Origin: Streptomyces antimycoticus
Lineage (GTDB): Bacteria > Actinomycetota > Actinomycetes > Streptomycetales > Streptomycetaceae
Length of the DNA: 64,000 bases
Direction of reading: 5' to 3'
Assembly: GCF_005405925.1 (NCBI RefSeq)
Contig: NZ_BJHV01000001.1
Span: 8,060,001-8,124,000 of the forward strand
Part shown: in pieces, positions 3,634 to 19,483 of the stretch
Numbering within the stretch: the stretch's first letter is position 1
Layout: each line of letters begins with the position of its first letter
Made by a program: the position numbers and the translations under genes
Notes under the pieces: model-generated
Seen by the model: only the letters and a program-made list of their open reading frames with translations
Databases searched by the model: none
Told to the model about the DNA's origin: nothing

Positions 3634-3735
3634 TGGCCGTAGTAGCGTGGCGGGTGAAGGGGGTGGGGTGGCTTGATCACGCGCCCCTCGTAGGGGGGAA
3701 GTCGTTATTTGAATCCGAAATGCCTGGGAGTGCAG

Positions 3736-5757
3736 ATGTCGTCATCAGGTGTCGTACCGGTGACCTTGGCCGAAATCGCCCGCCTCGCGGGTGTGGGGCG
3801 GGCCGCGGTGAGCAACTGGCGGCGGCGCCATGCGACGTTTCCTGGGCGGATCGGCGGCACGGATGTGAGCCCGCAGTTTTCCATGGCCGAGATCGAGGCA
3901 TGGCTGCGGGAGAACGGAAAGATCCAGAAGTCCGCAGAGCGGGAGTGGCTCTGGCCTCGGTTCGAGGCGCTCGCCGGGCGCGACGAGACCGGGCTCGCCA
4001 TCGCAGAGGTGGGACGGCGGCTCGCCGGGCGGGGGGCGGGCGGCAGTGGGCTTCTGGACGAAGTGCGTCCGCTGGTCGAGCGGGCGGTGGAGATCGGGCG
4101 GAGTGAGGGGGGCGCTGAGACCTTCGAGTTCCTGTTGCATCGCTGGCTCGACGTCCATGTGCGCCAGATCGCGACGACCCCCGAGCCACTGGCCGCCCTC
4201 ATGGCGGAACTCGCCTTCCGTACGGTCGTCGACGCGAAGGGCAGCAGGCATCGTACGACGGTCATGGACCCGGCCTGTGGCACCGGTCATCTGCTGGCCG
4301 CCGCGGCAGGATCGGCCGGGGCGGGCGCGGTCACGCTGATCGGCGGCGACCGCGACCCCGTGCTGGCCGCGTTGGCCTGCGTACGCCTGGAACTCGCGGC
4401 GCATGACGGAAGCCGACCGCGCATCGACGTACGACCGGGTGACTCCCTGCGCGCCGACCCGTTCGCCGACACACCCGCCGACATCGCCCTGTGCAATCCG
4501 CCCTTCAACGAGCGCGACTGGGGATACGAGGAACTGGCCACCGACGCCCGCTGGAGCCACGGCCTACCCCCACGTACCGAGCCCGAACTCGCCTGGGTGC
4601 AGCACTGCCTGGCCCGGCTGCGACCGGGCGGGGCCGCCGTACTGCTGCTGCCGCCCGCCGTGGCGGCCAGGAGAGCGGGCCGACGCATCCGGGGCTCTCT
4701 GCTGCGCACCGGACATCTGCAGGCCGTCGTGGCGCTGCCGCCGGGTTGCGCGGCGCCACACAGCGTCTCGCTGCATCTGTGGGTTCTGCGGGTGCCCGAT
4801 CCGAAGGAAGAGGCACAGGTGGGCGGCCGGCTGCTCCTCGCCGATGCCGCTTCCCGGTTTCCGCGGGCCTCGGCCAGGGACTCCGTCCCGGACTGGGCGG
4901 CGATCGGCGCCTTCGTGCGCGATGCCTTCGACGCGGCGGACGGTACGGAGCCCTGGAGCTCCCACTACGTGAGAACCGTGCCCGTCATCGACCTCCTCGG
5001 CGACGAGGTCGACCTCACTCCGGGACGCCACATCGCCCCGTCCCCCGCAGACACCGGCCGTCAACTGGCTGTATCCTGGAAGGAGTTCAGCGAGCTGGTC
5101 ACCGGTATGGGCAAGTCGGCCCGACTGCTCGCGGGGCTCGGCCTCACATCTGATGCGGCAGACACGCCGACGGCGACCACGGTGGCCGAACTTGCCCGGG
5201 CCGGGGCGCTCACCCTGCGTGGCGGTCAGCAGCCGCCGGAGGGAACAGTAGGCGAAGGGCAGCCGGTCGGCGAGGGATTCCCCTTGCTCACCGTCCCCGA
5301 CCTGCTGGTGGACGGCCAGCCCCACGGCTGGCTCGCACCTGATGTCGTATCAGCCTCCGGGGCGGTGGTCGCAGAAGCCGGGGACGTCGTGGTGGTGGGC
5401 GTAGCGCGGGCGTTCTCCGCCTGGGTCCACGATGGGCCGCCGACGGTGCTTGGCCCTCAGCTGCACGCTGTACGGGTGCAGCCCGAGCAGCTCGACGCCT
5501 GGTTCCTCGCCGGCTCCCTACGGGCCCCGGCCAATGCCAGGCAGGCGGGAACGCATACATCCAGCTCCTCCCGTATCGATGTCCGCCGGCTCCAGGTGCG
5601 GCAGGTGCCCCTGAATGAACAGCGGCGTTACGGAGCGGCGTTCCGGGAGCTGGCCGAGTTCGAAGGGATGGTGCGCCGCGCGGACACCCTCGGTCACGGC
5701 CTCGTCCGTGACCTCGGCGACGAGCTGGCGGCCGGGCGGCTGTCCGGCGCGGTGTAG
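3736..5757 (+). CDS. N6-adenine DNA methyltransferase with N-terminal HTH and C-terminal HsdS-like region
   Basis: 673 residues from the ATG at 3736 (GGGAG 5 bp upstream); an in-frame TTG at 3709 is a weaker alternative. Residues 8-45 form a MerR/phage-AlpA-like helix-turn-helix (LAEIARLAGVGRAAVSNWRR). The class I methyltransferase core carries SAM motif I DPACGTGHLL near 178 and the catalytic NPPF near 254, the HsdM/N6-Mtase type. The last 150 residues (VVVGVARAFSAWVHD to RRLQVRQVPLNEQRRY and a terminal helix) look like half of an HsdS specificity subunit, so recognition and methylation may sit in one chain. No nuclease domain is visible here. The HTH could let the enzyme autoregulate its locus; the shared 15-bp motifs nearby are candidate sites. 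The gene is convergent with the kinase. Confidence 0.85.
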   Translation: MSSSGVVPVTLAEIARLAGVGRAAVSNWRRRHATFPGRIGGTDVSPQFSMAEIEAWLRENGKIQKSAEREWLWPRFEALAGRDETGLAIAEVGRRLAGRGAGGSGLLDEVRPLVERAVEIGRSEGGAETFEFLLHRWLDVHVRQIATTPEPLAALMAELAFRTVVDAKGSRHRTTVMDPACGTGHLLAAAAGSAGAGAVTLIGGDRDPVLAALACVRLELAAHDGSRPRIDVRPGDSLRADPFADTPADIALCNPPFNERDWGYEELATDARWSHGLPPRTEPELAWVQHCLARLRPGGAAVLLLPPAVAARRAGRRIRGSLLRTGHLQAVVALPPGCAAPHSVSLHLWVLRVPDPKEEAQVGGRLLLADAASRFPRASARDSVPDWAAIGAFVRDAFDAADGTEPWSSHYVRTVPVIDLLGDEVDLTPGRHIAPSPADTGRQLAVSWKEFSELVTGMGKSARLLAGLGLTSDAADTPTATTVAELARAGALTLRGGQQPPEGTVGEGQPVGEGFPLLTVPDLLVDGQPHGWLAPDVVSASGAVVAEAGDVVVVGVARAFSAWVHDGPPTVLGPQLHAVRVQPEQLDAWFLAGSLRAPANARQAGTHTSSSSRIDVRRLQVRQVPLNEQRRYGAAFRELAEFEGMVRRADTLGHGLVRDLGDELAAGRLSGAV

Positions 5758-5929: not shown

Positions 5930-7408
5930 TCACACGCCCGTGCATCCGGGATCGGCTAGCCGCGCCGTGATCTGGCCGTCCACCGCCCGTCGTACGTCCT
6001 CCACCCGCTCCGCGAGCTCGGCGGGCAGTCCGGCGGCCGTGTGTCCCGCCGCGTCGACGGCCTCGATCGCGGTCTCCATCTCGCCGAAGGCGAGCCGGCA
6101 CTCGGCGACCCGCAGCCGGAGCACGGCCCTCTCGGCCCGCTCGGCGGGGCCGTCGCCGTGCAAGAGGTCGTTGGTGATGTCCTGGAAGATCGAAGCCGCG
6201 GAGCCTAGGTCGCCTGCCAGCCGCAACCCTTCTGCCGCCAGCCGCCATACGCGTCGGACCAGAGGGCGACGTGCCCCCCATTCCTCTCGGACCCGCTCCG
6301 TCATCTCCGCAAGACTGCGGACCGCCTCGCCCGGTTCTCCCGTTTGGACCTCCGACTCGGCCTGCGCGCAGAGCCGTTCGACGGTGCGCGCGTCGAGCCA
6401 CTCCTCCTCGCCCGCGATGGAAGCGGGTGCCGTGGCGCGAGCCGGGCGCGGCACTGGCCGCTCCTTCGGCCTACGGCAGGGGGCGGTGGGGTCCGGACGG
6501 GTCCGGGGCCGGGGCTCCGGATCACCGGGGCGGGGCCGCCACGGGGCAAGGACGTCCAGAACTTCGCCGATGGCAGGACGCCGCTCGGGCTTCTTGTCGA
6601 GCATGCGCAGCACCAGATCGTCGAGGACCTCGGGGACGCCCGCGGTGTACACGCCCGGCGGCAGCGGGTCCTCGTGCAGGTGCTTGTCGATCAGTCCGGA
6701 GTCCTCGCCGAGCACGAATGGGGGACGACCGGCAAGGAGTTCGTAGACGATACAGCCGAAGGAGTAGATGTCCGTCCGCGCGGTGGGCTCCTTCTCCAGG
6801 ATCTGCTCGGGCGCCTGGTAGCCGCGGCTACCTAGCGTCGATCCGTGCGCGGTGTACCGCGTGGCATCCGCACGAAGAGGCTTGGCGATACCGAAGTCGA
6901 GGAGGGTGGGCACCCCCTCCTCGTCAATCATGATGTTCTGTGGCTTGAGGTCCCGGTGCACGACGGGGAGGGTGTGCGCGCAGGCCAGGGCCTGCGCCAC
7001 CTGCGAGGCGACGGCCACCGCTGGGGCGAGGGGCAGCGTGTTGTGCTCGTCGAGGAAGGCCCGCAGAGTCAAGCCAGTCACCAGGCGCATGGCGATGTAC
7101 GGCGAGCCCTGGTGCGATCCGTGCCCGTACAGTTCCGGGATGCCTGGGTGGTCGAGGCTGCTCAGGAGTTCGACCTCGCGCCGGAACCGGGCGTAGAGGA
7201 TCGCGAGTTCGGCCTCCCTCTCGTACGGGTCGAGGCGGCGCAGGTCCTCGGAGTCGAGGCGGAGGAATTTGACCGCCACGTCCCGGCCGGTCGCGACCTC
7301 GCGGGCCCGCCAGACCTGGGCCATGCCGCCCTGACCGAGCGGGGCCGTCAACTCGTGGCGCCCGTCGACAAGTTCACCCGAGACGGGTTTGTGTGTGTTC
7401 GCGTTCAC
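5930..7408 (-). CDS. Ser/Thr protein kinase with TPR-like C-terminal region
   Basis: 492 residues from the GTG at 7408. The kinase domain is complete: glycine loop LGQGGMAQVW near 24, VAVK, HRDLKPQN near 148, DFGIAKP near 170 and APEQ. After a proline/arginine linker, residues about 320-492 are helical with A/L-rich repeats (for example AVRSLAEMTERVREEW and AERAVLRLRVAECRLAFGEMETAIEAVDAAG) that resemble tetratricopeptide repeats. No PASTA domain or transmembrane helix is seen, so it is probably cytoplasmic. It is transcribed divergently from the pPIWI-RE operon across a 187-bp intergenic region with a shared island motif, suggesting it is the signalling partner of the defence genes. Protein kinases occur in several phage-defence systems; the link here is inference from position. 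Confidence 0.85.
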   Translation of the reverse strand: MNANTHKPVSGELVDGRHELTAPLGQGGMAQVWRAREVATGRDVAVKFLRLDSEDLRRLDPYEREAELAILYARFRREVELLSSLDHPGIPELYGHGSHQGSPYIAMRLVTGLTLRAFLDEHNTLPLAPAVAVASQVAQALACAHTLPVVHRDLKPQNIMIDEEGVPTLLDFGIAKPLRADATRYTAHGSTLGSRGYQAPEQILEKEPTARTDIYSFGCIVYELLAGRPPFVLGEDSGLIDKHLHEDPLPPGVYTAGVPEVLDDLVLRMLDKKPERRPAIGEVLDVLAPWRPRPGDPEPRPRTRPDPTAPCRRPKERPVPRPARATAPASIAGEEEWLDARTVERLCAQAESEVQTGEPGEAVRSLAEMTERVREEWGARRPLVRRVWRLAAEGLRLAGDLGSAASIFQDITNDLLHGDGPAERAERAVLRLRVAECRLAFGEMETAIEAVDAAGHTAAGLPAELAERVEDVRRAVDGQITARLADPGCTGV

Positions 7409-7483
7409 CGCCGTGCCCCTTCGCACTCCTGCGCCATCCGGCTCACCAGAGTATCGTGAATAATTCAAGGATCGAAGCGCGCG

Positions 7484-7498
7484 TGGACTTAGTTCACA
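7484..7498 (-). promoter_or_regulatory. Shared island motif, copy 3 (kinase / pPIWI divergent promoter)
   Basis: On the minus strand this reads TGTGAACTAAGTCCA. With flanks it forms a near-perfect dyad, GTGAAC-TAA-GTCCAC. It lies 76 bp before the kinase start and 98 bp before the nuclease start, so it could control both directions. It is the best palindrome of the three copies. Confidence 0.5.
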
Positions 7499-7595
7499 AC
7501 GGTATGGCATGCTCTGGTGGTGCCCGGGCTCGTGTCGAGGGTCTCGTCGTTCCGGGGCGCATTCCTGCCCATGCCGCCCTCCACAGGGGGTCACC

Positions 7596-9352
7596 ATGCA
7601 GAATCCGCCGGGTGTCACCGGCCACAGTTGGCTGATCAAAGCAAGTCCCCGTATGGCCCGGCCGGACGACGTCGCCTGCCCGACGCACCAGCGCACCGCG
7701 ATGCGGCCCCTGCTTGTCGCCGACCCGCCGGTTCCGTTTCGCCCCGCCCCGCGTGAGGAGTTCGCGTTCGGGCCGCTCTTCACGGCCCTCGACCTCTGGG
7801 AGCACAGCGGATGGCCCCTGGAGCGGATACGCGAGGAACTCCGCCGCACTCGCGGCGCCTTCCGGGGGTGGGGCGCACCGGTTCACCCCGCCCTGCTGGC
7901 TTGGACCGCCCACGCCCTGGTGCGTTACGCGGCCGCGCGCCTCCGGGAGCAGAGTGCTGCTCGCGCGGCCGGACTGCCGCCTACGGTGCCAGTCAAGCAG
8001 CAGTGGACGGTGCGTACCCGCCGAGGAGACGTCCCTGACCCGCGCGGTGTGCGGCAGTACGAGCACACGGTCTGGGGCCGCGCCTACGCGGCCGATGACG
8101 GATCGGTCCGGGACCTGTGGATTCCCTCCTTGGGCCGGGCCAAGGAGAGCCGGCCCGCGGCGGAACTGGCGGCCGTGGCTCACGTCATGGCATACGGGGC
8201 GCCCACGCCTCGACGCAAAGCCGGCACCGAGCCCCACCCACCGCCACCGACGGCACGAACCTGCCCGATCTGGTCCGTGTCTTCGACTTCGGGTGTGCCG
8301 ACGGCCTCTTCGAGCCCCTGCTCGCCGAAGGTATGGCCAAGGTGAAGAAGCGGTTCGAGGTCGATGGGGCGACGGCTTTCCGCGCCGCCGCGACAGGAGT
8401 CGGAACGCGGCCGGGGGAGAGCTGCGTCGATTGCAAGGCCATCGCCGGATGTGCGGACCTGATGCGCACTCCCGAGCTGTGGGGTGGCAAGCCTCAGGCG
8501 GTCACCCGCAAGCGCCGGTCCGTCTCCGCCTGGGACCTGCGCCTTCACGGCGAATGCCCGGCCCAGTACCACCTGGTCAGGCAACTGCACCTGAACAACC
8601 TGTCCGCCGAGGGCCGGGGTGCGCAGCGCGGCCGGGCCGTCGACACCTGGCTGAACGAACGGCACGGCGAGCGGCCGGCACGCGGCTGTCGGGAGCGGCA
8701 GTCCCCCGACACTCCCGTGATACAGGCGAAGACCGGTCTCGACGACGCATCCGCCCGGGAGGTCGCCGGCATGCTGGCGGAACACCGCCTGTTCTGTCCG
8801 CTGGGCTGGCTCGGGTCCGACGAGCAGGTACTCGTACAGCACCGGGTGACGGCATATGTACCCGAACTCGATGTCGTTGTGCTCGCCGTGCCCGACCTGC
8901 TGTACACCTATCGCGGTCGGTGGACCTGGCGGGAGACCAAGACGGCGACCCGTCCCATCTGGGAGCGGCGTTCCCTGCTCCGCTCCTACCCCCAACTCGC
9001 CCTTGCTGTGCTTCTGCTCCATGCGGGTGCGCTCGGCAACGATCCCCGGCGATCCTGGGTCGAGCTGGAGCATCTACGCGAAGGGCACGGGGAGAGCCGC
9101 CTTGAACGCATCGACCCCGGCCGTGCCGAGAACGTCGAAGAAGCCCGTGCTGTCATCACCGAACTCGCCCAGCCGCTCCTGGCCGACACGACGTACGAGC
9201 CCAGGGCAGGACGTCACTGCCACGGCTGCCAGGCACGGACCTGGTGCCGCCCTGGCACCGTGTATGTCACCGATCATCCGCGCCCGGACGTGCCCGAAGA
9301 CGAGACCGGAACCGAAGCGGGGACCACGAAGCGAGGAGACGCCCGTGGCTGA
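7596..9352 (+). CDS. RecB/Cas4-like PD-(D/E)XK nuclease with Fe-S type cysteines, first gene of the pPIWI-RE operon (apparent frameshift)
   Basis: Starts at the ATG at 7596 with AGGGGG 5 bp upstream. The first about 210 codons and the remainder lie in two frames; inserting one C in the CCCC run at 8232-8235 joins them into one 585-residue protein (TEPPPTATDGTNLPDLVRVF). The C-terminal half has a RecB-family nuclease core: VPDLL followed by RETKT (D...ExK, near 433-447) and a Y-P-Q helix (SLLRSYPQLALA). Cysteines in ECPAQY (near 320) and CHGCQARTWC (near 541-550) match the arrangement of the 4Fe-4S cluster in Cas4/AddB nucleases. Another pair, CVDCKAIAGC, precedes them. Its stop overlaps the next gene's GTG by 8 bp. 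The role is probably DNA-end processing or degradation within the pPIWI-RE system. The frame break may be a sequencing error. Confidence 0.75.
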
Positions 9353-10583
9353 CCAGCAGCTTATGCCGGACTGGCTGTCCAACCCCGATGTGGTCCTCCT
9401 GCGGGACGTCGCCACCGCCATCGTGCACCTCGCGGGCGTCGACCGCCTCGACTCCTTCGCCCTGCCCTATCCGGCTTCGGCGCAGCGGGCTCTCGACGCA
9501 CTGGTGCTGCAGTGCTTGCTCAACGGAGCGCGACCGCCGGCCGGGGTGCCCGAGATGGTCCGCTGGGGTCGGGCCCGCCCGCTGGGCAGCTGGCCGCTCG
9601 ACCGGCTGCCCCTGGACCTGTTCGCCAGGGGCGACCGACTGATCGACGAGGACTCCGGCGAGCCTTCACAGCTCTGCCACGAACTCGCCGTCGAGGGATA
9701 TAGCAGCAGCACCGGCCGGCAGTATGACCGCCTGGTCATCCAGGAAGCCTTGCGGGCCTGCCGCACCATGGCATCGCCGGAGTCCTACACCGCCTTCCGT
9801 CGACTCCTGGTCACCCGCCCCGTTCTGACCGAAGCGGACTGGATGGAGGTCAGCACCGACCTCTACCTCGACCCCGTCCGCTTCCTGATCGAGGAGATCT
9901 ACGCCCCTGCCCCTCTCGGGTACCGGCGGGGCGGCTCGTACCTCTGCTGCCACCGCTGTCTGACGTTGCTCCACCCGGTGTCCGATAAGGATTGGTGGTG
10001 CGAGCGCGACCAGTGTCGGCACCGGGGACCCGCACCACACGGCCGGGCACTCGCCGCCACGGAAGTGGGTCAGCTGCGCCAACTACGCAAACCACTGCGA
10101 CAGTTCGTCACCGGACCGGGGCAGGCGGAGGTCACCTTGGAGGGTGAACTACGCGCCATGGGCCTCACAGTCGAAATGTGGCCCGGTTTCGATGCGTACG
10201 ACCTGCGAATCACTTTCCCGGACGGGCACGTCTGGGCCGTCGACGTCAAGGACTGGGCTCACCCCGGGTTGCTCGGACGGTCCGCCACAACCGTCCGGGG
10301 CGAACCACCGTACGACGAGGCCTGCTGGGTGGTGCCGTCCTTCAGGGTCCGGATGCGCCGTGACTATCTCGACATCTTCGCCCGAGAGCGGCGCGACCGG
10401 GCGGGCGGCCTCCGTCTGCTGACTGACGACCAGCTAAAGCGGGCCGCACGGCTGCGGCTGCGAGGCGAACGCGGAGCGGAGGCGTCCATCGCAGCCAGGG
10501 CTGTACCCCCGAACGCGTCGCAGAAGACGCCACGGGCGGCATCTCGGAAAGCCGCCGACAAGAACGGAGCAGACCATGCGTGA
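9345..10583 (+). CDS. pPIWI-RE-associated restriction endonuclease (Y-domain, zinc ribbon, PD-(D/E)XK)
   Basis: 412 residues from the GTG at 9345 (GAGGAG 7 bp upstream), overlapping the upstream stop. The N-terminal 180 residues are helical and match the general picture of the pPIWI_RE_Y region. A cysteine cluster CCHRC...CERDQC (near 201-228) is a probable zinc ribbon. The endonuclease core follows, with YDLRITFPDGHVWAVDVKDW near 285-304, in which D and DVK fit the PD-(D/E)XK signature. The C-terminus is basic and A/K/R-rich. In the pPIWI-RE three-gene islands described by Burroughs, Iyer and Aravind, a REase of this type accompanies the helicase and the PIWI protein, and it is the predicted DNA-cleaving subunit. 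Its stop overlaps the helicase start (ATGCGTGA), so expression is translationally coupled. Confidence 0.85.
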   Translation: MADQQLMPDWLSNPDVVLLRDVATAIVHLAGVDRLDSFALPYPASAQRALDALVLQCLLNGARPPAGVPEMVRWGRARPLGSWPLDRLPLDLFARGDRLIDEDSGEPSQLCHELAVEGYSSSTGRQYDRLVIQEALRACRTMASPESYTAFRRLLVTRPVLTEADWMEVSTDLYLDPVRFLIEEIYAPAPLGYRRGGSYLCCHRCLTLLHPVSDKDWWCERDQCRHRGPAPHGRALAATEVGQLRQLRKPLRQFVTGPGQAEVTLEGELRAMGLTVEMWPGFDAYDLRITFPDGHVWAVDVKDWAHPGLLGRSATTVRGEPPYDEACWVVPSFRVRMRRDYLDIFARERRDRAGGLRLLTDDQLKRAARLRLRGERGAEASIAARAVPPNASQKTPRAASRKAADKNGADHA

Positions 10584-13500
10584 CCGCAGCAGCTGGTACC
10601 AGCCTGTCGTCGCCGACCTCGGCCCCTGGCCCGAGGAATTCGCCCGGACCCGTCCCGCCCTGCTGTGCCAGGTCGAACTCGCCCTGCGGCTGATGGAGAC
10701 CGTAGCCCCAGGTCATGCCGCCAACGGGGCCTGGACGCTCCTCGGCGGCTACCCCTTCGCGCGGGCCGCGGGGCTCGCCACCGGACCGGCTGAACAGATC
10801 GCGCTGTCCGCGGCCCGTCACTTGCTGTGGCCGATGCGCCGTGGGCACATGTGGCGGCGAAGCCTGGACGCCTACCGGGAACTCCCCGAACGGCTGCGGG
10901 CGTATCGCGTCCCGGTGGCCGGAGAACCCGCCCGCCGGGTCAGCCCCAGGGTGGCCGCCAACCGCTTCGCGGCTTATGACGCAGCACTCGCGAACCTCCC
11001 CGAGCACGCGGCCAAACCAATTCCCCAGGCCGAGGAGGGCGAGCACCGTTTCATGGACCGGCGCAACAGGCGCACCTCCGTCACGATCCCCGCCGAGCTC
11101 GTACGAGAGCCCTTCCCGGCCCACACCCTAACCGCCCCCCGCAAGGGAACGGCGGGGCCTATTGACGTACCGCTCGATGAACTCGCCGACGTCGCACGGT
11201 GGATGGACAAGGAAGAGCGGCGGCGTGGGCTGAAGGTCGGAAGCTGGGCCGAGCGGCTCGACCACCTTGACCTGGACACCCGTACCGCGGAGGGAACGGG
11301 CTTCGAGGAGGCGAAGGCGTTGCCCCTCGACCGGCTCACCCACCTCGTGGGCATGGTTGGCGCCGGAAAGTCGACATTGATGACTTTGGTCGCCGCCTGG
11401 GCCCACCGCAGCGGTTTGCGCATCACACTCGTCGTCGGGGACGTGGCCGAACAGCTCAATTTGACCGAGCTTTTCCGCTCACTCGGCCTTAGTGCCGCCT
11501 TGGTCCAGGGAGGCACGACCCGGCCGCAGCACACCCAGCGCCTGCACCGAAGGCTGGCCGCACGAGGCAAGCACTCGCTGCTGTCCCACACCGGCACCGT
11601 TTTCTCCCACCTCAGTACCGCCTGCCCGCTGGATGCGCTGCGTGGTCTCGACGCGTCCGAGCCGCTGCGCTACACCGACTCGCCTTGCGGCGCACTCCAC
11701 CCCGTGCGACGCAAGGAGGCCGCCGAGGAACCTCCGGCCGAGCGCGCCATGCGTGAACTTGAACGCGCCCGCGGAGCCAGGCCCGGGACTCCGGCGGACG
11801 ACGCCGACGACAGCGATGACCTGGGCACCCCGCACTCCTGTCCTCTCTGGAGCGCCTGCCCGCGGCACTCCGCGTCGCGCGACCTGGTGGACGCGCTGAT
11901 CTGGGTGGCCAACCCCGCCAGCCTTGTCCAGACGGCGGTTCCACGTCAGCTCAACGCCGAGCGCCTGCGTTACCTGGAGCTGGCCTGTCTGCGCAGCGAC
12001 ATCGTGATCGTCGACGAGGCCGACCGCGTACAGATGCAGCTCGACCAGATGTTCGCGCCATCGGCGACACTGGTGACCACAGGCCCCGAGTCCTGGCTCG
12101 ATCAGCTGCAGACCCACGAGATCGCCGAATTGGCCCGGCAGGGACGGCTGCAGCTCTCCGACCAGGACGTGGAACGGTGGTCCGCCGCGTTGGACGTGGT
12201 CGGATCGGCAGCGGACCGGCTGTACGCCATGCTCATCGACGACGAAGGGCTCCGGAAGTGGGCGCAGATCGACTACTTCAGCGCCTGGACGCTCCAGGAA
12301 AAGCTGCTGCACGCCTGGTACCCGTCGGCGTCGGGCTCGCTTGCCGGGCGACCGGACAGCCAGGACGAGGAAGGTGTCGAGGACGAGAACGCGCTCTACG
12401 ACGACGAAGAAGGTCTCGGGCGTAGCGGCACCGCCCCTTCGCTTACTGCTCCTTGGGCAGAGCGCCGCACCGAGATCACCAGGTTTTTCGACGTCTTCCG
12501 TGATGATCCGCTGGGCGGGAAAGGCCCGTACCTGACTCCCACCGACGACCTGACCGCTCTCGCCCACGACGTCCTGCACACCCTCGACGAGAAACAGACC
12601 CGGCGCCGCGTCCGCGCACTGCTCGACTCGCTCCTCGTCGGGGCACCGGGGCCGGAGCAACGCTTGGCACCCCCCTCCAGGAACGGCAAGGAGCCGGCCC
12701 CCAAGGAGGTGGCGCTGACCGAGGAGTGGCGGGAACTCAACGCACGACGCCTGGAGTTCACCCTGGTACTCGCCGCACTGCACCAGCGCCTGGACCGGGT
12801 AACGTTCCTGTGGCCCCAAGTGGAGGCCGCGCTGCGACTCGACTCGGCCAGTCATGAGCTGACCCGGCGCCCGCCCCTCGACTACGCGCCGCTGCTGCCC
12901 GAGGCTCCCATGGGCAATGTACTCGGCTTCCAGTACCTCGTGGACGAGCGGGCTGCCGCCCGCAACAAGGACGGACACCGCACCGGGACCTTGCGCTTCT
13001 TTCGATGCGCGGGCGTGGGCCGCGAGCTCCTGCTGAATCTGCCGCAGCTTGGCGCCGACCCGAGTAGTGGCCAGGGCGGCCCGCACGTCCTGCTGATGTC
13101 GGGCACCAGTTGGGCCGGCACCTCCACCCGGGCGCACGTCCTCGCCCCCGTCCGGGCCGTTCTCAAACCTCAGCGGAAGGCGCTGCGGTCGATCCGGGAC
13201 ACTGTGTTCCGTACCGAGTTCCTCTACGACGATGCCGGGCAGCCGATCCGGCTGTCGGGTCAGGACCCAGAGAAACGCGAAGGCATCCTGCGCATGATGG
13301 TGGACCGGCTCGCCCGGCCGGGGCGCGACGGGAGCGCCTCCCCGCTGCAGAGCGAACTCGCCCAGATCCCGGACCAGCGCCGCAAGCGTGCCCTGCTCCT
13401 GGTGGGCAGCTACCGCGAGGCCAGGATGAGCGCCGCCTTCCTGGACGAGATCCCGCGCTGGCGGGGACGCGTACGCGTACTGGCGGCAGACGACGAAGAA

Positions 13501-14310
13501 TTGGAGACCGCCATCGATGGCGCGTCACCGGCAGGAGGACAGGTGCTGGGAGAGGGGGCGGTGCGGCGCGGAGACCTCGCCTCGTTCGCCGACGACCTGG
13601 ATGCCGAACTCCTTGTGGCCCCCCTCCTTGCTGTCGAGCGCGGCCACAACATCCTCACGGCCCCCCAACAGCCGGGCGAGGAGAAAGTGGCGGCGTTTGG
13701 GACGGTGTTCTTCCTGGTACGCCCGCACCCACGCCCTGACGACCTCTCGCTTGCTGTCTTCGCGATCAACGACTGGGCGACCCGCTTCGTACGCGACCAG
13801 CCGGGCCTGCCCCAGGGGACCTTCAGCGAACTGGTGGCCGCAGCGGACGGCTTGGACAACGCCGGAAGCGATTTCCGGAAGATGGCGCGTGGCGTCTGGC
13901 GGCATATGCTGTCTCGGCCCTACATTTATTCGTCCCTCTCCGACGACGAGAAGAAGTCCTTCGTCTGGGACCAGCTCGTCACCATCTGGCAGGTCATCGG
14001 ACGCCTGGTACGCGGCGGGGTCCCCGCTCGCGTCGTATTCGTCGACGCGGCCTTCGCGCCGCAGCTCGCCGCAGCGGGGGCGCCCGTCACCGGACGGGAG
14101 CAACGCTCGAACCGCAGCAGCGATCCCGGGTTGCTCGTGCGCCTGCGGGATGTCCTCGCCCCGTATTTCACGGACTCCACCCCCATCGACGGGCTCGCTG
14201 ATCCTGCCGATACCGCGCTGGTCAAGCTGCTCTACCACCCGCTGTACGAGGCGTTGTGCGCGATGAGGTCCCGGCCCGCGAGGCACGGACTGATGCCGTC
14301 CAATCAGTGA
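10576..14310 (+). CDS. pPIWI-RE-associated XPD/DinG-like Fe-S helicase
   Basis: 1244 residues. The N-terminal about 230 residues correspond in position to the Z domain of pPIWI-RE helicases. The helicase core has Walker A GMVGAGKST near 258-266 and a DEAD box, VIVDEADRVQ, near 479-483. Four cysteines lie between them (TACPLD, DSPCGA, HSCPLWSAC; near 348, 369, 421 and 427), the expected place for the 4Fe-4S cluster of XPD/DinG helicases. Late motifs include VGSYREARMSAAFL and WQVIGRLVRGGVPAR (motif VI) near 1138. An acidic low-complexity linker (DEEGVEDENALYDDEE) splits the middle. It should unwind DNA, or an RNA-DNA duplex, for the PIWI protein and nucleases. It is coupled to the REase upstream; the pPIWI gene follows after 64 bp. 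Confidence 0.88.
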   Translation: MRDRSSWYQPVVADLGPWPEEFARTRPALLCQVELALRLMETVAPGHAANGAWTLLGGYPFARAAGLATGPAEQIALSAARHLLWPMRRGHMWRRSLDAYRELPERLRAYRVPVAGEPARRVSPRVAANRFAAYDAALANLPEHAAKPIPQAEEGEHRFMDRRNRRTSVTIPAELVREPFPAHTLTAPRKGTAGPIDVPLDELADVARWMDKEERRRGLKVGSWAERLDHLDLDTRTAEGTGFEEAKALPLDRLTHLVGMVGAGKSTLMTLVAAWAHRSGLRITLVVGDVAEQLNLTELFRSLGLSAALVQGGTTRPQHTQRLHRRLAARGKHSLLSHTGTVFSHLSTACPLDALRGLDASEPLRYTDSPCGALHPVRRKEAAEEPPAERAMRELERARGARPGTPADDADDSDDLGTPHSCPLWSACPRHSASRDLVDALIWVANPASLVQTAVPRQLNAERLRYLELACLRSDIVIVDEADRVQMQLDQMFAPSATLVTTGPESWLDQLQTHEIAELARQGRLQLSDQDVERWSAALDVVGSAADRLYAMLIDDEGLRKWAQIDYFSAWTLQEKLLHAWYPSASGSLAGRPDSQDEEGVEDENALYDDEEGLGRSGTAPSLTAPWAERRTEITRFFDVFRDDPLGGKGPYLTPTDDLTALAHDVLHTLDEKQTRRRVRALLDSLLVGAPGPEQRLAPPSRNGKEPAPKEVALTEEWRELNARRLEFTLVLAALHQRLDRVTFLWPQVEAALRLDSASHELTRRPPLDYAPLLPEAPMGNVLGFQYLVDERAAARNKDGHRTGTLRFFRCAGVGRELLLNLPQLGADPSSGQGGPHVLLMSGTSWAGTSTRAHVLAPVRAVLKPQRKALRSIRDTVFRTEFLYDDAGQPIRLSGQDPEKREGILRMMVDRLARPGRDGSASPLQSELAQIPDQRRKRALLLVGSYREARMSAAFLDEIPRWRGRVRVLAADDEELETAIDGASPAGGQVLGEGAVRRGDLASFADDLDAELLVAPLLAVERGHNILTAPQQPGEEKVAAFGTVFFLVRPHPRPDDLSLAVFAINDWATRFVRDQPGLPQGTFSELVAAADGLDNAGSDFRKMARGVWRHMLSRPYIYSSLSDDEKKSFVWDQLVTIWQVIGRLVRGGVPARVVFVDAAFAPQLAAAGAPVTGREQRSNRSSDPGLLVRLRDVLAPYFTDSTPIDGLADPADTALVKLLYHPLYEALCAMRSRPARHGLMPSNQ

Positions 14311-14374
14311 GGCATCGCGGCCATCGAGCGCTGGGCCAGGCCTGTATCCGTACGACATCTCAGGGAGAACCCAC

Positions 14375-17300
14375 ATGTACAAGAAGATCCGCCGCTCCGT
14401 GTACCACTTGGCCGAGGACTCCGTGCCCTGGACCGAGGACTTCCGTGCGCTCACCTTCCCTGAACAGTGGCACCCCGGACTTCTGGAACTGCACAACCAC
14501 GGACGTGACCAGGACAAGCAGCACCAGACCCTGCCCACCCGGCGACTGGACAGCGTGCTCCAGACACTCGCCCCCGACGTGATCGTCCGGCCCAGGCCCA
14601 GGACGCCGGTCGAGCCAGGGCCGCAAACCGCCGAAGACTTTTGGATGTACGTCCCGGCCTCGGCGCCGGACCCCCTCCCAGGCCGATCGACAGAGCAACT
14701 CCTCGACGCATGGCTGCGCACCCTCGGTCCCAGGGAAGCCGCGCCGGATCCCCGATTCCGCTCTCTGCTGCTTGCCCGCAGCGCTGACCTGAAACAGAAC
14801 CTGCCCAGGTGGCAGCCGGTCCCCGGCGTCGAGCTGCTGAATACCCCGATCACCCGGGGCGGCACCGCCGCCCCCGAACCACGGCAGTTCCAGCTCGCCA
14901 CCGACGCGCTGGCACGCCGTATCCTGGCCCTCGGCGCCTTCCCCTTCGAGGGCGGAGAACTGCGCTTCCGAGCCCTTCCCCGCGGCCCGCGCGATCAGGG
15001 GGCCGAACTCATGTCGCAGCCCCTGTGCCGGACCGTCAAGCGCAAGGAGTGGTGGTTCTCCGTCGTACTGAACATCTCCCTTCACACCACCCCGTTCGAT
15101 CCCCGTCCACGCCTGCACCTGCACTGGGGGGTACGCCGCTGGGCCACCCACCCCCGGGCATCCACCAAGCGCCTGAACTTGCCATACGGGGAGGCCACTA
15201 CCGTCTACCTGCGGCCCACGATCCCCTGGCTGCCCGGAGCACCGGCGACCGAGCGTTACGCCCTGGCCCGCTTGCGTCGGGACCGGGCGGCCGACGCCTT
15301 CGTCTGGGCGGAGAACGACGCGGCGGGCATCCTCCGCGGACTGAGCCTCGCCGGAAACTTCCCCGACCCCGAACACCTGCTTTCGGAGCCGATCTCCTGG
15401 ATCGGCGAGGGCAGCGGCGTACGGGCATCCGTGGTCCACAGCACAAGGATGGGACAGCATGAAATCGGCGTTGGCCTGATGCCGAACCAGCGTGCCCAGC
15501 TCACCGAATGGGCGGAAGCGGCCCTCCCACAAGAGGTGGTCCGGGTGCCCGACCTGGTGCGCGGACGCGGCAAGGGCATCAGCGCACCAGAGAACCGGAG
15601 GCCGAAGCCGAGGAGCGAGGAGGCCAAGAAGACCGAACTGCTGCGCGAGGCACAGGCTCGACGCATTGCCCTCGCGACGCAAGTCCGGACCGTAGCTGCC
15701 TGCGACCCGGGATCGGACAGCCCGCCCGTAGTAGAGGCCAGGCTGCTGTGGCAGTCACCTGAAGTGCGCAAAGAGGCGGTTTCACAGTTCGGCAAGGCCC
15801 TCGGTCTCGACGGCGACGGGGGGATCGCTGCGGCAGGGCTCACTGACCGGGAATTCGACGAGGCCACGCCCGGGGCGCCGGTCGTCCTGGAATGGCGGAC
15901 GGCGGAGCTGACGCTCCGACTGCGCTGCCTGCCGCTGGCCGATGGGCAGGGCGACCGGCTCGTGCCCGAACCAACGGTGAAGGGCAAAGGCGCAGCGATC
16001 GCCGCGGCCGTCACGACGCGGCGCCGCACTCTGCGCGAATGGCTCCGCGCGGACGGCGCCGACCCGTCCCGCCCCGCACTCGCCCTCGTGGAGATCGCAC
16101 ATCGCAGCACGTTCCGTCCGGCTTCGACGGACCCCAAATTCGCCATCCGCCTAGGATGCGCCGACGCGGGCCTGCTGACCCAGTTCATCGTGGCCCCCTC
16201 CACCGACAGGCTGATCGACAACGCAGACAGTCTCGGACATCGCGCACACAGTTCGTGGCTCGACGGACTGCGCCAGCTTGGCGTCCGCGTCCTGCCCCAG
16301 CACACACTCGGCAACGACCTCCCGGACGGACTGCAGTACGCGGCGGTGTGGATGGTGAAGCGCCGCAAGGATGGCCCGACCCGGCTGCCCAAGCACCTGC
16401 CGGTGGCCGTCCTGATGACTCCGCTCCCCGAAGGGGAGGGTCTGGCGGCCGTACGCGGCTGGGACGACAGCGCCGGGGAATGGGTGTCCTACCCTCGATT
16501 CCTCCTCGGCCTCGTGAAGCAGGCCCAGATCGACCCCGAGACGTTCGCGGAGCCCGAGGCGTTGAACGCCACCCCGGACCCGGCCGATGGCCAGAACAAA
16601 GGCCCACGGCCCGAAACACGCTGGGTCACCGGCAAGCAGTGGCGTACCAACCTCGCTCAGCAGCGGAAGGAGACCGCAGGATTCCTCCAGCGCGTGCTGC
16701 ACTCCCTTCGAGGACGGCCGACCGTGCTGATCACCCATGCGCAGAACAGCAGGCTGCACTGGCCATGGCTGCAGGACGGCCAGACCGAACGGGACCTTCT
16801 CCGAGCCGGCCACGCCCCGGCTGGTCGGCTCGACGACGAACTCCGGCTGGTGCGTGTGCGAGGGCGCGGCGGACGTGAGACCGCGCAGTGGTGGGGGCTC
16901 GCGGAACCCGGCAAGCCGCACGGACAGCCGGCCGGCTTCTGGGCGCAAGCTCCGGAGCACGAAACCCGAACATCGCCACAGGACCGGATTTTCTACAGCA
17001 CCACGGAACGCCCCGGAACCCACACGATCTCTCCCGCGCTCGACAGGCTGGCTACCCGGGTCAACGCTGCTGGCAACCTCACCTCCCAGGCGGGCACCGG
17101 CGCCTGGAACCCGACGCTGGTAGAGATCGCGGTACTGGGCTGCCACGCGAACGACGACGTAGGAGACGCCGTAACGGGAAAGCCTGACGACGCCGAGGCA
17201 CTGGCCCTCTCCATGCACCAGCTGCGTCAGGCGCCGGACTACGCTGCGGCGCTGTCCCTTCCGCTCCCTCTTCACTTGGCGGGACTTGCCCAGGCGTACG

Positions 17301-17464
17301 TCCTTCCGACGCTTGCAGAGGGCGACGGAAACCCTGGCGAGGAGGCGGCGGAGCCCACCACGGAGCAGAGCCCGGAGGATCCGGACCTGGCCGACGCGGC
17401 CGGACTGGCCACAGAACCTGACGTGGACGATGACCAGGGGGCGGAAGCGCGCAGCGCTTCGTGA
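14375..17464 (+). CDS. pPIWI-RE protein (prokaryotic PIWI of the RE family, DUF3962-type N-terminus)
   Basis: 1029 residues from the ATG at 14375 with AGGGAG 7 bp upstream. Layout and neighbours match pPIWI-RE: a large N-terminal X/DUF3962 region, a middle MID-like segment, and a C-terminal RNase H-fold PIWI module from about 640. The family is named for a conserved Arg and Glu; the likely candidates are in VRVRGRGGRET (826-836) and NPTLVEIAVLG (911-921). I do not see a clear set of catalytic aspartates, so it may guide or sense nucleic acid rather than cut. Burroughs, Iyer and Aravind predicted an RNA-guided restriction role for such islands. The acidic tail of about 60 residues is low complexity. 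It is the last gene of the four-gene operon; a 168-bp gap precedes the next gene. Confidence 0.85.
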   Translation: MYKKIRRSVYHLAEDSVPWTEDFRALTFPEQWHPGLLELHNHGRDQDKQHQTLPTRRLDSVLQTLAPDVIVRPRPRTPVEPGPQTAEDFWMYVPASAPDPLPGRSTEQLLDAWLRTLGPREAAPDPRFRSLLLARSADLKQNLPRWQPVPGVELLNTPITRGGTAAPEPRQFQLATDALARRILALGAFPFEGGELRFRALPRGPRDQGAELMSQPLCRTVKRKEWWFSVVLNISLHTTPFDPRPRLHLHWGVRRWATHPRASTKRLNLPYGEATTVYLRPTIPWLPGAPATERYALARLRRDRAADAFVWAENDAAGILRGLSLAGNFPDPEHLLSEPISWIGEGSGVRASVVHSTRMGQHEIGVGLMPNQRAQLTEWAEAALPQEVVRVPDLVRGRGKGISAPENRRPKPRSEEAKKTELLREAQARRIALATQVRTVAACDPGSDSPPVVEARLLWQSPEVRKEAVSQFGKALGLDGDGGIAAAGLTDREFDEATPGAPVVLEWRTAELTLRLRCLPLADGQGDRLVPEPTVKGKGAAIAAAVTTRRRTLREWLRADGADPSRPALALVEIAHRSTFRPASTDPKFAIRLGCADAGLLTQFIVAPSTDRLIDNADSLGHRAHSSWLDGLRQLGVRVLPQHTLGNDLPDGLQYAAVWMVKRRKDGPTRLPKHLPVAVLMTPLPEGEGLAAVRGWDDSAGEWVSYPRFLLGLVKQAQIDPETFAEPEALNATPDPADGQNKGPRPETRWVTGKQWRTNLAQQRKETAGFLQRVLHSLRGRPTVLITHAQNSRLHWPWLQDGQTERDLLRAGHAPAGRLDDELRLVRVRGRGGRETAQWWGLAEPGKPHGQPAGFWAQAPEHETRTSPQDRIFYSTTERPGTHTISPALDRLATRVNAAGNLTSQAGTGAWNPTLVEIAVLGCHANDDVGDAVTGKPDDAEALALSMHQLRQAPDYAAALSLPLPLHLAGLAQAYVLPTLAEGDGNPGEEAAEPTTEQSPEDPDLADAAGLATEPDVDDDQGAEARSAS

Positions 17465-17632: not shown

Positions 17633-19483
17633 ATGAGAGCGGACACGGTCGATCTGCGGCGAATCTTCGGCAGGGATATTCGTTACACGGTGCCGCTGTT
17701 CCAGAGGCCGTATGTGTGGAACCGGGACGACAACTGGTCAGCTCTGTGGGAGGACGTCCGCCGCACCGTCGAGGGGGCTGAGCAGGCGGCGCTGACCGGA
17801 GAGGCAGCGGCGCCGCACTTTCTCGGCGCGGTTGTCTTCGACGAGACCCCCTACCCCTCGTCAAGCCTGGAGACGCGGCAGGTCATCGACGGCCAGCAGC
17901 GCCTGACAACACTGCAGTTGTTCCTGTTCGCCGCCCGTTTGTCAGCGGCGGCTCACAACCACGAGCGGTCCGTACGGCTGCTGAGCAAGTTCCTGGAGAA
18001 CGACGACGACCTGTTCGACCGCGCCCAGCACCCCGACCACCTCTACAAAGTCTGGCCAACCAATGCGGACCGTGACGAGTTCCGCACCGTCATGCTCGGC
18101 CAGGGCGGGGCAGGACGGCTCGCTGAAGCCGTCACCTACTTTCAGCAGGAGATCGACGCTTGGCTGGCGGAAGCCTCTGAGCCTCACGAGCGGCTGGGAA
18201 TGCTGGTGCAGGCGCTGCGGGAACAGCTCCGTTTGGTCATCATCGACCTGGAAGAGCACGACGACGCGCAGGTCGTCTTCGAGACGCTGAACAGCCGCGG
18301 TACACCGCTGCAGCGCGCGGACTTGATCAAGAACTTGCTGTTCCGCAACGCCGAACGTGCTGGCGCGGACGTCGACCGGCTCTACAAAACGTACTGGGCG
18401 CCCTTCGATCAGGACGAATGGCGCATGGAACAGACGACCGGCCGCATTACGCGAAGCCGCCTCGACGTGTTCCTGACATACTGGCTCACGATGCGTACCC
18501 AGCTCGAGTTCACCGCCTCCGCCCTGTTCAAGGAATTCGAACGCTGGCTACTCTCGTCCGCCACCCCCACAGAGGACGTCTTTGCCGAGCTGGCCCGATA
18601 CGCCGAGATCTATGATCTCATCGATGGTCATCCGCTGCACGGCGTCGAGGGCCGGTTCTTGTATCGGATGAAGGTCCTTCAGACCTCTACTCCGATGCCG
18701 CTGCTCCTCTTCCTCTACGGCCTGGACGAGTCTGTGTTGCCACTGGAGCGTCGGCGACGGGCGATCCGCTCCATCGACAGCTACCTCGTTCGCCGGGCGA
18801 TGCTCAATCTCAGCACCCGCGACTACAACAACGTATTCCGCGACCTGGTCGCGGCCGCAGCACGGCAGCCCGACCGCGCGGATGAAGCCGTCATCAAGGC
18901 GCTCTCGGCGATGCAGGGTCACCACCGTCACTGGCCCGGCGACTACGAGTTCCGTACCTCGTTGGAACACGATCCCATTTACTCGCGTCTGGTCCGTCGC
19001 AGTGTACGTATCCTCCTGGAAGCGCTGGAGGACGAGCTGCGCACCGACCACACCGAACAGCTCACTGTCCCCGTCGGCGAGCAGGTGGGTTCGAAATTGA
19101 CCATCGAGCATGTCATGCCGCAGAGCTGGCGCGACAACTGGCCGCCTTTGGAGGATGATCCGTCCGAAGGCGCCGACCGCGACGAGCTGGTCCACACGCT
19201 CGGCAACCTGACCCTGGTCACCGCCCGCCTGAACCCTACCCTGGGCAACATGCCCTGGCAGGACAAGCGGGAGTGGCTCAGCAAGCACAGCCTGCTACGC
19301 CTCACCCACGGCACCCTGCTCAGTGCTCCGCCGAACACCGAAATTAGCGGCTGGGCCACCACCTGGGACGAGAACCGGATCCGCGCGCGGGGCGCCTACC
19401 TCGCCTCGCTGGCCCTGGCCATCTGGCCGTACGCCGACCATCTACTCGTCGGCCCGTTGCCCGCCGAGCACGAAGACAAGTGA
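17633..19483 (+). CDS. Fused GmrSD-type (DUF262-DUF1524) type IV restriction-like enzyme
   Basis: 616 residues from the ATG at 17633 with GGGAGGGG upstream. The N-terminal DUF262 (ParB/Srx-like, GmrS) part has VPLFQRPYVW at 20-29, VIDGQQRLTT near 84-93 and VFETLNSRGTPL near 216; the DGQQR element is the NTP-binding/hydrolysis signature. The C-terminal DUF1524 (GmrD, His-Me finger nuclease) part has TIEHVMPQSW near 489-498 and GNLTLVTARLN near 523. Such single-chain GmrSD proteins cut DNA with modified cytosines, for example glucosylated hydroxymethylcytosine in phage genomes; the modification specificity here is unknown. It stands alone between the pPIWI operon and the NLR pair, and has its own 168-bp upstream region. 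Confidence 0.88.
   Translation: MRADTVDLRRIFGRDIRYTVPLFQRPYVWNRDDNWSALWEDVRRTVEGAEQAALTGEAAAPHFLGAVVFDETPYPSSSLETRQVIDGQQRLTTLQLFLFAARLSAAAHNHERSVRLLSKFLENDDDLFDRAQHPDHLYKVWPTNADRDEFRTVMLGQGGAGRLAEAVTYFQQEIDAWLAEASEPHERLGMLVQALREQLRLVIIDLEEHDDAQVVFETLNSRGTPLQRADLIKNLLFRNAERAGADVDRLYKTYWAPFDQDEWRMEQTTGRITRSRLDVFLTYWLTMRTQLEFTASALFKEFERWLLSSATPTEDVFAELARYAEIYDLIDGHPLHGVEGRFLYRMKVLQTSTPMPLLLFLYGLDESVLPLERRRRAIRSIDSYLVRRAMLNLSTRDYNNVFRDLVAAAARQPDRADEAVIKALSAMQGHHRHWPGDYEFRTSLEHDPIYSRLVRRSVRILLEALEDELRTDHTEQLTVPVGEQVGSKLTIEHVMPQSWRDNWPPLEDDPSEGADRDELVHTLGNLTLVTARLNPTLGNMPWQDKREWLSKHSLLRLTHGTLLSAPPNTEISGWATTWDENRIRARGAYLASLALAIWPYADHLLVGPLPAEHEDK

Follow-up and report, generated by a model that had tools for sequence, protein, structure and literature searches.

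A tandem Cas4/RecB-like nuclease in an actinobacterial branch of four-gene pPIWI-RE operons, and its possible role as the executing enzyme

We analysed a stretch of 64,000 nucleotides from Streptomyces antimycoticus (contig NZ_BJHV01000001.1, positions 8,060,001 to 8,124,000), hereafter called the window, which belongs to an 11.17 Mb genome of 3 contigs. It carries a pPIWI-RE operon in which a nuclease gene precedes the genes for a restriction endonuclease (REase), a DinG/XPD-like iron-sulphur (Fe-S) helicase and a PIWI protein. This four-gene operon had been predicted in an earlier note on the same DNA, and the present analysis confirmed it, with the genes at the predicted positions. The fourth gene is a regular part of one pPIWI-RE branch, and, judging by its motifs, its product (~575 residues) seems to consist of two consecutive halves of Cas4/RecB type, each with an Fe-S cysteine set. 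We favour the interpretation that this protein is the executing nuclease of the four-gene operon in an actinobacterial clade and can replace the REase there, although in our judgment belief and doubt are evenly balanced on this point.

The fourth gene and the REase active site across Streptomyces

In a draw of 396 genomes spread evenly over the phylum, the nuclease family was found in 3 genomes, all of them among the 6 with the PIWI RNase H domain. A second draw, of 392 genomes taken as Streptomyces, gave the PIWI domain in 111 genomes and the nuclease, at E 1e-3, in 62 (55 strong full matches, 6 weak C-terminal matches and 1 fragment). A PIWI match was present in 53 of the 55 genomes with a strong nuclease, versus 111 of 392 across the genus draw. 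The locus census comprised 110 of the 139 PIWI places of the genus draw and G346 of the phylum draw (111 loci); the window itself was omitted, as were 28 places that were short or interrupted, some of them with E below 1e-20. REase and helicase were present in 107 of these loci and the nuclease in 51. For the 40 nuclease copies listed among the 51, the stop codon lay 12-123 bp upstream of the start of the REase domain. We also compared 22 close named loci (21 Streptomyces and 1 Streptantibioticus), which partly overlap the census (e.g. L007 and L063), and the two counts are never summed. The nuclease adjoined the PIWI genes in 20 of the 22, which counters the refuting case named in the earlier note, absence of the gene beside pPIWI-RE genes in all relatives. 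L025 had no nuclease and a partial REase, and L026, near a contig end, had a broken PIWI only.

On a helicase tree (FastTree, 108 rows), the nuclease label required 2 changes versus a shuffled mean of ~36, with a method that joins long branches readily. The nuclease clade comprised 49 census loci and the window; L131 and L138 formed a second small lineage. Nuclease distances tracked helicase distances (Pearson 0.955; 0.980 for PIWI and helicase). On a nuclease tree of 88 rows, L131 and L138 fell inside the family, and copies from loci free of PIWI formed a group of their own. Among the matches listed, named relatives of the nuclease were all actinobacterial (the 120 listed of 267 matches in one search and all 89 in another, each scoring only the ~8,000 top candidates), and 50,697 phage records gave no nuclease match.

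The REase catalytic triad, intact in the window (D286, D300 and K302), was scored in the 107 census loci with a REase. Within the nuclease clade, it was intact in 36 of 49 loci, fully lost in 12 and partly changed in one (L091, first Asp lost). Outside the clade it was intact in 58 of 58 loci, including the two with a nuclease, and lost in none. The 12 triad-less loci made up exactly one supported, monophyletic set on the helicase tree, and the nuclease residues D, E and K were intact in all 12. The cleaving REase is thus dispensable in these loci. No full triad loss was seen in a locus lacking the tandem nuclease, which argues that this enzyme can do the cutting. Judged by active-site residues, no DNA-cutting enzyme of the operon other than the fourth protein appears to have kept its active site in this side branch. 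The loss marks the fourth gene as the first enzyme to assay.

Four of the 12 triad-less REases were scanned with domain profiles: the Y domain was strong in all four, whereas the REase profile scored 23-28 bits in three and was absent in one. The median ratio of nonsynonymous to synonymous substitution rates (dN/dS) of the REase catalytic half was 0.65 (40 pairs) in the 12 loci versus 0.34 (202 pairs) in triad-intact loci, the latter set being 30 of the 36. The nuclease had a median of 0.25 (31 pairs) in the 12 loci. Values for the N-terminal part of the REase were 0.34 in the 12 and 0.43 in triad-intact loci, and those for PIWI were 0.27 and 0.26. A protein search with one triad-less REase returned 110 proteins, none of which had D286 or K302. 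All 110 retained zinc-ribbon cysteines 1-3, and 109 also had the fourth. The named proteins came from Streptomyces, Kitasatospora, Nocardiopsis and Streptacidiphilus. This search was ranked by likeness to the triad-less query, and it shows persistence of the lineage, neither its frequency nor its gene neighbours.

Anatomy of the four proteins

All four genes are on the plus strand. The earlier picture of a single operon headed by an Fe-S nuclease of Cas4/RecB type was borne out: the nuclease stop (9352) and the GTG start of the REase gene (9345) overlap by 8 bp (9345-9352), and both Pfam and PADLOC profiles identified the nuclease. In the window this gene is not one open frame, a break at which the earlier note had only hinted by speaking of a joined product. 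The first piece is in the frame of 7596, which runs to 8345, and the second lies in another frame (8117-9352); homology to intact relatives switches frame at ~8235-8265. The 5' piece (7596..8265; PADLOC PprPDDEXK 8e-44) has a start common to relatives and an approximate end, where the homology changes frame. It encodes the greater part of the N-terminal Cas4/RecB-like half, which is probably inactive and whose first set cysteine lies at 7677-7679. The 3' piece (8235..9352, in the frame open from 8117; PF12705 PDDEXK_1 5.1e-19, PprPDDEXK 5.2e-145) completes the N-half, including a CxxCx5C motif at 8423-8452. The putative catalytic Cas4/RecB-like half follows, with a cysteine in 8549-8566, the Asp motif at 8885-8908, ExK at 8930-8944 and CxxCx5C at 9218-9247. 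PprPDDEXK matched the two pieces at model positions 3-124 and 110-443; the first piece had no Pfam match, and the second alone gave PDDEXK_1.

In 20 of the 22 close named loci, the nuclease was a single frame ahead of the REase, helicase and PIWI genes, and 51 of 51 census copies were likewise in one frame. A programmed frameshift was therefore rejected in favour of a lesion or sequencing error in this genome, and because its frame is broken, the window copy may be inactive or mis-sequenced. Its probable database copy is P0001, a stub of 339 residues with 100% identity across 82% of the second piece. In L179, from the low-completeness genome G760 (55%), PIWI, helicase and REase were broken over many frames and the nuclease was in one, a warning that sequencing error may underlie broken frames among these loci.

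All 63 aligned nucleases kept the two four-cysteine sets and, in the C-half, D434, E447 and K449 (D-ExK). The C-half of all 63 has the features of a Cas4/RecB/AddB-type nuclease, D..ExK plus C...CxxCx5C, with a predicted Fe-S cluster, and its modelled fold matched AdnA, AddB, RecE, EXO5 and ACE1. The N-half has no full catalytic triad and looks catalytically dead. Its helix/strand order, in a model with a predicted local distance difference test score (pLDDT) of 90.5, matches that of the Cas4/RecB-type fold, to which its profile match was weak. Pfam PDDEXK_1 matched N-halves weakly (4 of 36, best E 0.01). A sequence search of the PDB with the 36 N-halves gave a single match, to a ribosomal protein at E 0.8, and the PDB held no sequence match to the PIWI protein and none to the nuclease profile at E 1. 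The fold comparison behind the AdnA, ACE1, RecE and AddB matches hardly covers the N-half, and no absence is claimed for that half. One protein apparently holding two Fe-S clusters is unusual.

The partner genes also agreed with their earlier assignments. The REase protein (9345..10583) matched pPIWI_RE_Y (PF18156, 8.5e-54), pPIWI_RE_REase (PF18154, 3.6e-41) and PprRE (4.1e-137); after the Y domain it has a zinc ribbon at 9945-10016 and the D..DxK triad of a PD-(D/E)XK enzyme at 10194-10208 and 10242-10256. The Fe-S helicase (10576..14310; pPIWI_RE_Z PF18155 7.9e-56, PADLOC PprDinG 1065 bits) has a Walker A motif at 11350-11376, a DEAD box at 12010-12024 and four cysteines between 11620 and 11865. 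None of the 107 census helicases departed from the Walker A Lys, the D-E-x-D positions or the four cysteines. The pPIWI-RE protein (14375..17464), whose identity the earlier note had proposed to check by profile, matched pPIWI_RE_X (PF13111, 3.8e-124), RNaseH (PF13032, 1.6e-81) and MID (PF18157, 2.2e-41). With the six Pfam profiles, the three core genes scored far above the curated cut-offs, and the window proteins matched all four PADLOC Ppr models (PprPDDEXK in two pieces, PprRE, PprDinG and PprPIWI). NCBIfam assigned no family to the six proteins scanned.

The PIWI protein had been expected to lack the usual catalytic acids, and it has W659 where the first RNase H Asp of an active fold would lie, in a column placed by pattern. 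Across the aligned rows this column contained H in 57, W in 48, Y in 5, K in 1 and one gap, with an acidic residue in 0 of 111; a Nostoc PIWI, read by eye, also has W. The MID residues D586, K588 and Q603 are kept in the window (D586 and K588 in 111 of 112 rows, Q603 in 110). The window protein also has R827 and E917, a putative RNase H signature pair judged by conservation; the Arg was found in 98 and the Glu in 104 of 112 rows. The column of Arg 827 was Leu in all 12 triad-less-REase loci. In the PIWI proteins of L126, L129, L134, L136, L141-L143 and L145, column 917 holds Q, D or R in place of Glu; those of L126 and L136 also deviate from the Arg, and the name-giving pair is thus not universal in the alignment. 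The idea that an inactive PIWI explains the fourth gene was rejected, since the column of W659 has no acid in nuclease-less loci either.

Proposed mechanism and alternatives

In the model of Burroughs, Iyer and Aravind (2013; PMC3702460), pPIWI-RE operons are predicted defence systems in which PIWI locates foreign nucleic acid via a guide or hybrid and cutting is done by the REase and, where active, by PIWI. In the mechanism that we propose, the PIWI protein, which appears to lack the catalytic acids but has the conserved MID residues, would find foreign DNA via a guide or an RNA-DNA hybrid. The DinG-type Fe-S helicase would then open the located DNA, and the tandem nuclease would degrade the unwound strands as the executing nuclease. 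The Y/zinc-ribbon/REase protein would act as a structural partner, its own active site being an optional second cutter that was lost once in a sub-lineage. There is a precedent in BPAN, described in PMC10620215 as an inactive long-B prokaryotic Argonaute (pAgo) with a PD-(D/E)XK effector.

In a historical extension of this mechanism, DNA destruction passed to a recruited tandem Cas4-like protein with one dead and one live Fe-S half, and the ancestral REase then decayed to a zinc-ribbon scaffold in a large living lineage; we consider this quite possible, with doubt somewhat prevailing. If true, each such operon would encode a machine of a helicase and a single nuclease, directed by a PIWI that does not cut. 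The four-gene operon also adds another PIWI branch to those in which an Argonaute relative is paired with a Cas4-type nuclease. Within one genus, matched sets of loci with an intact REase, with a dead REase and without the nuclease allow the parts played by REase, nuclease and PIWI to be told apart.

Several observations weigh against the interpretation that we favour. The REase loss is one evolutionary event, and the 12 loci therefore count once. Helicase dN/dS varies too (0.31 in the 12, 0.41 in triad-intact loci), and all dN/dS values come from a crude split at 64% of the alignment columns, with pairs kept only at dS 0.02-1. Spearman correlations of the nuclease with the other three proteins were 0.46-0.64, those among the three 0.79-0.86. 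The clade label needs 3 changes on the nuclease tree, which does not repeat the helicase tree; the L118 type groups beside the PIWI-free copies (midpoint drawing). Nuclease exchange is therefore possible. The family also occurs without PIWI (L174, L175, L177 and L178). Fifty-six census loci have REase and helicase without the nuclease, which is therefore not essential to this kind of system. The proposed inactivity of the N-half was read from a profile alignment that is itself weak (E 0.0003, probability 39%), and a stand-alone prediction of this half from 20 close sequences reached a pLDDT of only 50.2 and was excluded from the fold search.

The main rival, drawn by analogy, is that the fourth protein chews DNA ends into fragments that PIWI loads as guides, while other components cleave or silence. 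Argonaute-Cas4 pairs, whose existence is reported in PMC10653904, and ACE1 provide the model for it, as does the part of Cas4 in spacer capture. However, a triad-less REase together with a PIWI that has no acid at the presumed column would leave no other intact nuclease site in the operon, and the 56 nuclease-less loci would need another guide source. We consider guide making unlikely.

An abortive response would require that the PIWI complex, on recognising an invader, switch the nuclease to an unspecific DNase that destroys host DNA as well. PMC10620215 describes this mode of action for an inactive long-B pAgo paired with a PD-(D/E)XK nuclease, and Pfam gives only PDDEXK_1 in the nuclease pieces. 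The catalytic half, however, resembles helicase-coupled or exonuclease domains (AdnA, AddB, RecE, EXO5) and a helicase gene adjoins, so end-fed degradation would fit better, and an abortive role seems improbable.

The earlier note had envisaged a division of labour in which cutting falls to the REase and the fourth protein is confined to end processing, both being needed. Both active sites are intact in 36 of the 49 clade loci, and the window has both motifs, with the nuclease in two frames. Loss of the REase site in 12 of the others, together with the like state of all 110 proteins found with one such REase, makes this scheme doubtful as a general one, and we give it little credence. That a repair-type nuclease gene merely travels beside the operon could be argued from the PIWI-free copies, the departure of the nuclease tree from the helicase tree and the broken frame of the window nuclease beside three open partners, but the 8-bp overlap, tight spacing elsewhere, clade-wide retention, low dN/dS and REase loss only where the nuclease is present render it very improbable.

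Known systems and neighbouring genes

The three-gene island of PMC3702460 has the same components in the same order: a REase with Y domain and zinc ribbon, a DinG-type helicase with Z domain and a pPIWI-RE protein with X, MID and RNase H domains. There, the REase gene comes first and no fourth nuclease is named; the main text has neither Cas4 nor RecB. In the window the order REase, helicase, PIWI is kept, yet a tandem Cas4/RecB-like gene comes first, and a sub-lineage has no REase triad. The locus was classed as a variant of the three-gene system because the fourth gene precedes the REase. The same four-protein set is already in the defence database PADLOC-DB 2.0.0 (fourth gene PprPDDEXK), whose model rows carry no description. 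The suggestion that the system might be undescribed therefore fails for the gene set. No paper describing the fourth gene was found in the literature searched, most subscription papers and preprints being outside its scope. Within the reach of these searches, what is new is the Fe-S anatomy of the tandem protein, the census of the clade with its limits and the loss of the REase active site.

ACE1, the Argonaute-associated Cas4 nuclease, is said to sit beside a classical long-A pAgo, of which it is reportedly the guide supplier; the partner here is pPIWI-RE. The two share a Cas4-family fold beside an Argonaute relative, but the solved ACE1 chains deposited as PDB 9iab and 9iac have 266-269 residues, whereas the window-type nuclease is a tandem protein of ~575 residues beside pPIWI-RE and a helicase. 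The likeness is one of modelled fold, found where the PDB sequence search of the nuclease profile gave nothing. BPAN, an experimentally tested arrangement (PMC10620215), likewise joins an inactive Argonaute relative to a PD-(D/E)XK DNase effector; as described there, it is a simple pAgo-plus-nuclease operon, and it is likened here by description, with no sequence or fold comparison of the nucleases. Unlike the AdnA and AddB nuclease domains, the fourth protein has no UvrD-type helicase in the same chain; a separate DinG-type helicase gene adjoins. PsPIWI-RE of Pseudomonas stutzeri is also encoded beside dinG, but it cuts DNA and needs D525 and D610 according to PMC10991935, whereas the window PIWI has no acid at the presumed first position. 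That study was the only laboratory test of pPIWI-RE in the literature searched.

In 21 nuclease-less loci (L089, L092-L094, L099-L101, L105-L109, L111, L112, L114, L121, L127, L128, L132, L133 and L140), a common open frame of 235-515 residues lies upstream of the REase. It resembles a helix-turn-helix/winged-helix regulator in most of 7 copies judged by eye. In L025:1-10000, from Streptomyces violaceusniger NBRC 13459, a helicase and a PIWI gene were found without a nuclease match; of the REase only the end is present, sharing an open frame with the helicase.

Tandem nuclease copies without PIWI are located at L177:9252-13055, L178:8563-12347, L174:9434-13136 and L175:9683-13254, in two genus-draw chromosomes and in plasmids of S. 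albidoflavus and Rhodococcus antarcticus. The next gene encodes an uncharacterised product of ~265-280 residues and is followed by a convergent gene of ~390-404 residues, an ImmA/IrrE-type peptidase gene in L174, L175 and L177 and assigned by position only in L178. This set is possibly a separate system. Plasmids gave two distant nuclease matches, both without PIWI, REase or helicase within the 21 kb examined. PIWI was found in two Nostoc plasmid records, one of which was examined and had three genes and no nuclease.

Directly downstream of the PIWI gene, the window has a GmrSD/DUF262 type IV restriction-like gene (17633-19483; GmrSD_N 4.2e-34, GmrSD_C 7.6e-24). Among the 22 named loci, mostly with 10 kb of flank, a GmrSD match was found only in L019, further away and on the other strand. 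The product of 19978-22440, near the restriction gene, has TPR repeats and a weak AAA/NB-ARC-like match that falls short of the curated cut-offs; it may be a STAND-type NTPase. Upstream of the operon, a UvrD-like helicase gene (1423-3588) is followed by an N6 DNA methylase-like gene (3709-5757) and then, on the opposite strand, by a protein kinase gene (5930-7849).

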